Assembly (NCBI GenBank): GCA_009692615.1
Contig: SHYW01000049.1
Span: 1 to 34,640 of the forward strand
Origin: Deltaproteobacteria bacterium
GTDB lineage: Bacteria; Desulfobacterota; Binatia; UBA9968
DNA: 34,640 nucleotides
Reading direction: 5' to 3'
Position 1 is the first letter of the stretch. Every line of letters begins with the position of its first letter. Both the position numbers and the translations under genes were made by a program. Shown one piece after another: positions 25,051 to 27,111 of the stretch. The notes below the pieces were generated by a model, which was not told the origin of the DNA, searched no databases, and saw nothing but the letters and a program-made list of their open reading frames with translations.

Positions 25051-25617
25051 ATGATCCATCGCTCGTTCTGCGCCGTGATCATCACCGCGATCGCGCTCTG
25101 CGCCATTGCAACAGCAAGCAGCGCGGCCGAATCGTCCTGCCCCGCGATCCTCGATCATAAGTTCGCCAATCTGATGGACGAGCCGGTTTCGCTCTGCCAG
25201 TTTCGCGGCAAAGTACTGCTCATCGTCAACACCGCCAGTGAATGCGGCTACACGCCGCAATACGACGGCTTGGAAAAACTATATCGCCGTTATCGCGACA
25301 AGGGTTTCGCGGTTTTAGGATTTTCCGCCAACGACTTCGGCGCCCAGGAACCGGGCTCGAACAAAGAGATCGCGCAATTCTGCCAGGTCAATTATGGCAT
25401 CACCTTTCCGGTGTTCGCCAAGACTTCAGTAGTTGGCGTTAAAGCCAACCCGCTGTTTCGCGAGCTGGCGGCCAAGACCAAGAAGCCGCCGCAATGGAAT
25501 TTTCACAAGTATCTTCTCGATAAAGCCGGACAACCGGTAAATGTTTTCGAAAGCGCCGCCGAACCGGAAGACCGACGCATCACCACGGAAATCGAAAAAC
25601 TGCTGCTTGCGCGCTAA
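25051..25617 (+). CDS. Secreted glutathione peroxidase (thiol peroxidase) family protein
   Basis: A 188-residue peroxidase of the GPx/BtuE family with an N-terminal signal peptide (residues 1-26, ending ASSAA), so it should act in the periplasm. Catalytic residues: Cys65 in NTASECGYTPQY, Gln99 in FGAQEPGSNKEI, and Trp149-Asn150 in PPQWNFHKYL. Cys111 in FCQVNYGITFPVF is a probable resolving Cys, suggesting a thioredoxin-type reductant. The usual FPCNQFG has become FSANDFG. Ribosome site AAGGAG lies before the ATG. Divergent from the chromate-transporter pair; a shared role in oxidative or oxyanion stress is possible. Confidence 0.9.
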   Translation: MIHRSFCAVIITAIALCAIATASSAAESSCPAILDHKFANLMDEPVSLCQFRGKVLLIVNTASECGYTPQYDGLEKLYRRYRDKGFAVLGFSANDFGAQEPGSNKEIAQFCQVNYGITFPVFAKTSVVGVKANPLFRELAAKTKKPPQWNFHKYLLDKAGQPVNVFESAAEPEDRRITTEIEKLLLAR

Positions 25618-25691: not shown

Positions 25692-26054
25692 ATGTCCGAT
25701 CCCAGCCCACAAAGCGGTGCAGAGTTTGTCGCAGAACAATTGCGCGACAAGATTGACGCGCTCTACCGCTTCGACTCTCGCCAGATTCTCGCCACCTTGA
25801 TTCGCCTGCTCGGCGATTTCGATCTCGCCGAAGAAGCGCTGCACGAAGCTTTTCGCGCCGCGTTGGAACAATGGCCGCGCGATGGCGTGCCGGCCAATCC
25901 GCGCGCCTGGCTGATTTCCACCGGCCGCTTCAAAGCCATCGACGCGATCCGCAAGCGCGCGCGCTTCGAATCGTTGCCCGACGATATCGCCGAGCGCCTG
26001 ACCAGCGAAAGCGACGATTTAGAATCAACTCGGCATTTCGCGATCGGGGTATGA
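25692..26054 (+). pseudogene. Truncated ECF sigma factor (ECF42-like) with repeat-derived tail
   Basis: The 120-residue frame begins as a normal ECF42-type sigma factor: IDALYRFDSRQILATLIRLLGDFDLAEEALHEAF then AALEQWPRDGVPANPRAWLI and FKAIDAIRKRARFESL. These are sigma region 2 and its linker. After SDDLES (about 26030) the sequence changes to TRHFAIGV and stops, where an intact protein would run on for roughly 300 residues through region 4 and a C-terminal extension. The break coincides with a three-hairpin repeat. Region 4, which reads the -35, is gone, so it cannot act as a normal sigma factor. Confidence 0.85.
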
Positions 26055-26129
26055 ACCCCGCTCGCGACCAAAGGGGATGCTCGCCCCCTTTGGAAACCCC
26101 ATTTAGTTGTGCCCGCCGCAAGCAGCGGG
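26038..26129. repeat. Three-hairpin REP/MITE-like element in the broken sigma gene
   Basis: Three consecutive hairpins lie in 92 bases. The first pairs 26038-26050 with 26055-26067 (12 of 13 pairs, loop ATGA). The second pairs CCAAAGGGG (26068-26076) with CCCCTTTGG (26085-26093). The third is CCCGC...GCGGG (26112-26116 with 26125-26129, with inner GC/GC). No protein is supported. It lies between the end of sigma homology (about 26030) and the start of SRPBCC homology (about 26139). Confidence 0.65.
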
Positions 26130-26138
26130 GAATATTAG

Positions 26139-26346
26139 ATTAAACCGTTCACAGCAACCAACACCACCGAATTCAGCTTCAAGCCCGAAGCTGAAAAAAC
26201 GCTGGTCACTTGGAGCATGTTCGGCGAAAACAATTTCATCGCCAAGGCCTTCGCCTGTTCATGAACATGGACAAAATGGTCGGCGGCGATTTCGAAAAGG
26301 GTTGGCGCAAATGAAATCGCTGGTTGAAGCGGCGCCCAAGCAATAG
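26139..26346 (+). pseudogene. Remnant of an SRPBCC (polyketide-cyclase-like) protein
   Basis: The frame from about 26142 reads KPFTATNTTEFSFKPEAEKT then LVTWSMFGENNFIAKAF, the C-terminal half of the SRPBCC/START-like family found beside ECF42 sigma factors and DoxX. A one-base loss near 26258 ends that frame. In the next frame MNMDKMVGGDFEKG continues, a second loss near 26308 shifts again, and AQMKSLVEAAPKQ ends in TAG at 26344-26346. The N-terminal half is absent. Non-functional. Confidence 0.8.
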
Positions 26347-26375
26347 CACGGCGAAAACAATAACCGGAGAAAAAC

Positions 26376-26747
26376 ATGAACGTTGTACTGTGGATCGCAC
26401 AAACACTGCTCGCCGCGCTATTTTTGTTCGCCGGCGGTTCGAAGCTGGTCATGTCAATCGAAGAGATGACCAAGCAGATGCCGATGCCGGGCTGGTTCCT
26501 GCGCTTCATCGGCGTAGCCGAAGTGTTGGGCGCCGTCGGTCTGATTCTCCCTGGACTTTTGCGTATTCGCCCCAGCTTGACACCGCTCGCAGCGGCGGGA
26601 TTGGTGATCGTTATGATCGGCGCGACGGCGGTTACGCTGATGACCGGCGATGTCGCCACCGCGCTGATGCCGCTCGTGACCGGGCTTCTCACCGCCTTCG
26701 TCGCCTACGGCCGCCGGCGCCTCAAACCATTCTCAACCAAGTCCTGA
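26376..26747 (+). CDS. DoxX family membrane protein
   Basis: A 123-residue four-helix DoxX-family membrane protein: VLWIAQTLLAALFLFAGGSKL, WFLRFIGVAEVLGAVGLILP, LTPLAAAGLVIVMIGATAVTL and a last helix near ALMPLVTGLLTAFVAYG. GGAG lies about seven bases before the ATG. In intact relatives it belongs to the same small operon as an ECF sigma factor and an SRPBCC protein; here it is the only member of the three still intact. Function unknown; links to redox or thiosulfate metabolism exist for some members. Confidence 0.85.
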   Translation: MNVVLWIAQTLLAALFLFAGGSKLVMSIEEMTKQMPMPGWFLRFIGVAEVLGAVGLILPGLLRIRPSLTPLAAAGLVIVMIGATAVTLMTGDVATALMPLVTGLLTAFVAYGRRRLKPFSTKS

Positions 26748-26760
26748 AGAGTGTCGTGAA

Positions 26761-27111
26761 TCAGCTGCGCGAAGCCGCACGTTGCTTGGGCAACATGCGT
26801 ATCGGAGTTTGGGACGGGGCCAGCAGTCTTTTTGCATTCCCCACCATGCCGGAAAGAAAATTATAATCGCACGCCTCACAAATGACTCCCGAGAGCGGCA
26901 GTTGCTCTGCGCAGTTCGGGCACTTTTTTAATGACGGGAGGTGTTGCTCCTCAAACATTCGATCGACGGCGTACTCGTTTGAGAACGCACTTCCCGTCAC
27001 CAACGCCTTGAAAACACCGACTTGCTTCTTGTCCCCTGCAATGGCGATAAGAAACATCAAGATAATTGCCGGGGCAAAAAAATTAACGATATCTAAATTT
27101 TCACCAGTCAT
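26761..27111 (-). CDS. Small membrane-anchored zinc-ribbon protein
   Basis: A 116-residue protein I cannot assign to a named family. An N-terminal membrane helix (about residues 9-25, FFAPAIILMFLIAIAG) precedes a linker and a four-Cys ribbon: CPNC at 64-67 and CEAC at 78-81, followed by DYNF. The tail is short and basic. A strong ribosome site GAAGGAG lies seven bases before the ATG, which supports it as a real gene. It is convergent with doxX (stop codons 14 bases apart). It may be a sensor or scaffold at the inner membrane. Confidence 0.7.
   Translation of the reverse strand: MTGENLDIVNFFAPAIILMFLIAIAGDKKQVGVFKALVTGSAFSNEYAVDRMFEEQHLPSLKKCPNCAEQLPLSGVICEACDYNFLSGMVGNAKRLLAPSQTPIRMLPKQRAASRS

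Follow-up and report, generated by a model that had tools for sequence, protein, structure and literature searches.

Described systems exist for both parts of the locus considered here. As for the sigma factor, YCII-related proteins have been described near ECF42 in PMC8999054. As for the repeat that interrupts it, the features of REP sequences and their RAYT proteins used for comparison are those given in PMC2817692, and the tetramers GTAG and CGTC are the REP tags named in PMC3733652. Repeats of the RU/ERIC type were compared on the basis of PMC2759123 and of general background.

In the window, that is the whole stretch of 34,640 nucleotides analysed here, about 112 codons of a sigma factor gene lie downstream of an intact glutathione peroxidase gene; next come a 109-bp block of three hairpins, the final third of an SRPBCC gene and doxX, which is intact (Table 1). 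Comparison with relatives suggests that a stress-type sigma-factor operon has lost about 6 kb here, with one copy of a repeat left as a scar. No tRNA was found in the window; a small ORF beside doxX (26761-27111, minus strand) gave a zinc-ribbon-like UPF0547 match of 27.6 bits, against a cut-off of 29 bits.

Table 1. Features of the interrupted locus (positions in the window)
Feature	Position	Strand	Evidence
Glutathione peroxidase gene, intact	25051..25617	+	PF00255, 1.7e-33
ECF42-type sigma gene, first ~112 codons, region 2 only	25692..26024	+	PF04542; 68-72% identity to full-length proteins of closest relatives
Three-hairpin repeat element, ~109-116 bp, exact ends +/- few bases	26025..26138	+	22 genome matches; flank comparison
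Hairpin 1	26038..26067	+	Fold; holds four two-sided pair changes
Hairpin 2	26068..26093	+	Fold; core motif count
Hairpin 3, weakest in fold	26112..26129	+	Fold
SRPBCC gene 3' remnant, two frameshifts	26139..26346	+	Alignment to homologues
doxX, intact	26376..26747	+	PF13564, 1.1e-21

The first-pass annotation had placed the end of sigma homology at about 26030 and the return of SRPBCC homology at about 26139, on either side of three tandem hairpins and upstream of an intact doxX. The hairpins and doxX are as it described them, and both borders proved right within a few bases. The ORF at 25692-26054 matches Sigma70_r2 (PF04542) at 4.3e-10, and in alignments with nine relatives' loci its homology runs as far as 26012-26027 in eight, overall to near 26024; in the ninth (L079) it extends to 26048, where the tail runs into the element. 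The sigma factor has about 415-450 residues in relatives, as against about 112 in the window, where it stops before region 4. SRPBCC homology starts at 26139, and positions 26139-26343 correspond, in three pieces, to residues 111-179 of a 179-aa protein, with two single-base frameshifts relative to four homologues. The sigma fragment gives no dating of the event, because differences fall mostly at third codon positions in every pair compared.

The sigma protein of a sister genome, G003, resembles ECF42 modules in having region 2, region 4, the C-terminal extension past region 4 (DUF6596 and TPR) and YCII genes downstream, whereas the window sigma retains only region 2 and has no such extension. 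The YCII-family neighbour is present in G003 and G004, and none was found beside the sigma of the window. A glutathione peroxidase gene also lies near sigma in these two genomes, as a fragment in G003.

It had been predicted that an intact locus would hold the rest of the sigma gene and probably more genes, and a comparison with other genomes agrees with this. A single contig of G019 (locus L079) carries sigma, ten ORFs, SRPBCC and doxX, all with the same orientation, and the points on it corresponding to the two borders of the break are 6.4 kb apart with ten whole ORFs between them, so that the loss measured against G019 is about 6.4 kb. By reading, these ORFs would be YCII-, VOC-, GFA-, BNR- and MoaD-like, the Pfam search having covered the members in G003 and G004. 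The distance from sigma to doxX is about 3.8 kb in G008 (L080), where no match to SRPBCC turned up, and most of the operon genes of G019 also occur in G003 and G004, on two contigs each. The short form itself did not appear in any of the other four genus genomes compared. The rest of sigma was not found in the genome of the window (G000), which is 98.7% complete and gave otherwise weak hits of 24-25% identity; seven other operon proteins searched together, BNR in part, matched in it only the SRPBCC remnant and BNR paralogues at 24-36% identity.

A unique sequence was rejected for the interrupting block. A search of G000 with the 109 bp, as had been advised, gave 22 matches including the window copy; six are identical (five besides the window copy) and 14 have at least 97% identity over at least 108 of the 109 bases. 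Matches occur in 11 of the 39 genomes searched, its own included, that is in 10 of 38 relatives. The middle hairpin alone reveals a repeat family, with 17 cores in G000 (at most two mismatches) and 193 in the sister G002 (at most three mismatches), while the reversed control gave 0 in both. An exact 35-mer search found 53 stretches, whose carriers are labelled Syntrophobacter sp. SbD2 and Deltaproteobacteria bacterium; all are genomes from metagenomes, and the labels are possibly provisional.

The fold of 26020-26150 has a z of about -4.2 both as DNA and as RNA, with one of 200 shuffles equally stable in each case. In an alignment of 39 of the 49 stored copies (the others being too short, identical or without the core motif), predicted arms pair in 96.8% of cells, compared with a shuffle mean of 91.3% and a maximum of 92.6%, and two-sided changes occur in four of the 20 pairs, every one in hairpin 1. 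This excess only supports the hairpin structure, as kinship alone can beat such shuffles without selection. A known RNA family was rejected, the best Rfam match, P6, reaching 13.3 bits where the gathering score is 50, and a narrow search of the open-access literature gave no description of the element.

Common to the flanks of the copies are TCAAC at the left edge and ATT at the right. No target-site duplication was detected in 24 copies (best score 2.76, with a permutation 95% point of 3.29), and none was visible when the copy L009 was compared with three empty sites. Since the element leaves no detectable duplication, mismatched duplications are useless as a test for recombination.

The surroundings of 13 other copies in G000 were studied by comparing flanking ORFs with the genus, among the matches listed, and by alignment to sister loci; the copy of the window (L005) is the one under study, and the comparison did not extend to L015 and L016-L020. 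Eleven of the 13 look like simple insertions, and for nine the neighbours are found together in a sister, both counts among the matches listed. For L009 and L010 the flanking DNA is contiguous in a sister except for 13 and 18 bp, respectively, and L009 (G000:C22:14662-14770) lies within an ORF whose counterparts of 371-379 aa in G001, G003 and G004 are uninterrupted, so insertion into genes happens. The neighbours of L008 are 1.25 kb apart in G004 with a 402-aa ORF between them, G001 and G002 showing only one neighbour; the left flank of L012 was not found in the sister comparison, and at the empty sites of L011, L013 and L014 the alignment was too poor for reading. Given the eleven cases, simple insertion is the rule among the copies tested and the window copy is exceptional. 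Two copies apparently occupy the same intergenic site in two species (G004:C148:5419-5525 with L006, and L227 in G002:C664 with L013); some insertions may therefore be old, or sites may be preferred.

The same comparison bears on the quality of the assembly. Two distant places could have been joined at the identical repeat, the 6-kb middle being absent from the bin; in keeping with this, five further copies are identical to the one in the window and the genome is in 186 contigs. However, the agreement of the neighbours of 11 of the 13 other copies with the sisters, among the matches listed, indicates that the repeat is usually crossed correctly, searches of the other contigs did not recover the missing genes, and the SRPBCC remnant carries frameshifts besides. 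A misassembly would still require element copies inside both genes, and we consider it improbable. A true deletion associated with the element is instead very probable.

The likeliest way in which this deletion may have come about, to which we give an even chance, is recombination between same-direction copies in sigma and SRPBCC. The ancestor would have had a long ECF42-type operon made of sigma, several YCII and VOC-like genes, BNR, a MoaD/ThiS-like gene, SRPBCC and doxX. One copy of the mobile three-hairpin repeat would have entered sigma and another, with the same orientation, SRPBCC; the two would then have undergone homologous recombination, deleting about 6 kb and leaving a single copy, after which the remaining SRPBCC would have decayed while doxX survived. 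We infer both the existence of the two copies and the role of recombination in the deletion. In favour of this route are the flush borders, the insertion of L009 into an ORF, and a pair of same-direction copies of 99% identity lying 5.05 kb apart on contig C7 of G004; 22 copies spread over 5.05 Mb would by chance give about 0.6 pairs spaced by 6.4 kb or less, roughly half of which would share a direction. The first-pass annotation had suggested a deletion between two repeat copies: the deletion and a multicopy element at the break are well supported, while the two-copy step is inferred, as a parent with both copies did not appear among the loci of the other four genus genomes (one genome per species).

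Next in rank after the two-copy route is a deletion from a single copy, inserted in sigma or in SRPBCC, that extended from one end of the element into the other gene. Some insertion sequences cause adjacent deletions, one insertion would be enough, and both ends of the element are intact and flush. We nevertheless hold it to be unlikely, since no such deletion is seen at 11 of the 13 other copies, among the matches listed, and no transposase could be linked to the element at the two Y1_Tnp loci compared. Misassembly ranks after it, and last comes the late insertion of an element at the junction of an earlier deletion.

The last of these has to be weighed together with the state of the operon in the genus, where four of the five genomes, G000 included, each show what looks like a different form of breakage. 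In G002 (L108, contig C128, 490-1066) a phosphatase gene, which in G004 adjoins sigma, is followed by an element copy at about 819-957 and then by BNR, MoaD-like and doxX genes, operon homology resuming at 998, about 40 bp to the right of the element. When sigma, DUF1428, one VOC, one YCII and SRPBCC were searched together against this genome, which is 93% complete, there was no match at 1e-6. With 193 cores in 4.7 Mb the chance of a copy within 60 bp of a given point is about 0.5%, and it rises to a few per cent for a few hundred bases; for this reason G002 is only suggestive of a second element-associated break, with the sigma half lost, and counts in favour of the two-copy route only as such. 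Against that route, about 330 bp to the left of the G002 element match nothing in the eight loci compared.

In G001 (L117, contig C8, 7514-7936) a 155-aa frame fuses DUF1428 to residues 140-178 of SRPBCC, with no element at the fusion and no close sigma in the genome. G004 has a YCII gene interrupted at residue 46, with its parts at two contig ends (L078 1-140 and L110 1-146); one of these ends is repeated on two further G004 contigs, at three loci of which two share a contig. The recurring end reads like the C-terminus of a transposase, although Pfam gave no hit, and the interrupter is perhaps an insertion sequence. No break was seen within the two operon contigs of G003, a genome that is 67% complete. 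Since the operon is often damaged, without the element in G001 and by another interruption in G004, part of its loss is independent of the element. This speaks against the two-copy route, the operon being prone to loss anyway, and it is also what would favour a deletion from another cause followed by insertion at its junction, given that remodelling such as the fusion in G001 needs no element. With about 22 copies in 5.05 Mb, however, a chance insertion no more than 10 bp from any given junction has a probability of the order of 1 in 10,000, and this sequence of events is very improbable.

On the preferred reading, an element-associated deletion, the event is an ordinary process, repeat-associated gene loss, in a little-studied lineage. 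The short sigma gene becomes a readable scar, and annotators are warned against calling the sigma/SRPBCC pair functional. It is distinctly unlikely that the repeat represents an undescribed class of mobile DNA, with duplication-free insertion at AT-rich targets, a single-strand-type spread and repeated loss of accessory operons in the lineage, the ECF42 operon having been cut at least twice (G000 and G002).

As for known classes, the element shares with REP/BIME sequences and their RAYT proteins (IS200/IS605-like) a palindromic, multicopy and mostly extragenic nature, the absence of target-site duplication and the presence of Y1_Tnp genes in G000. Such genes are found in 35 of the 39 genomes searched, its own included, so their presence alone is uninformative. 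The element differs from REP sequences in that no GTAG or CGTC tetramer was found by eye in 26030-26138 on either strand, and its three-hairpin unit measures about 110 bp, compared with 20-40 bp for a REP unit. A RAYT-driven REP was not supported: among the transposase genes of G000 the comparison covered the two Y1_Tnp loci, which have no significant match to the element and are not flanked by it. At one of them (L142, G000:C78:1000-5000) the Y1_Tnp gene lies between its own 28-nt inverted repeat arms (1171-1198 and 2073-2100), and gene and repeat are possibly a separate REP/RAYT unit. From MITEs the element differs in having no detectable target-site duplication and terminal inverted repeats of about 4 bp at most, the left edge (A)ATCAAC and the right edge AGATT sharing about four inverted bases by eye. 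Like MITE-like repeats and RU/ERIC repeats of 100-170 bp, it is about 110 bp long, non-coding, multicopy, mostly intergenic and hairpin-forming.
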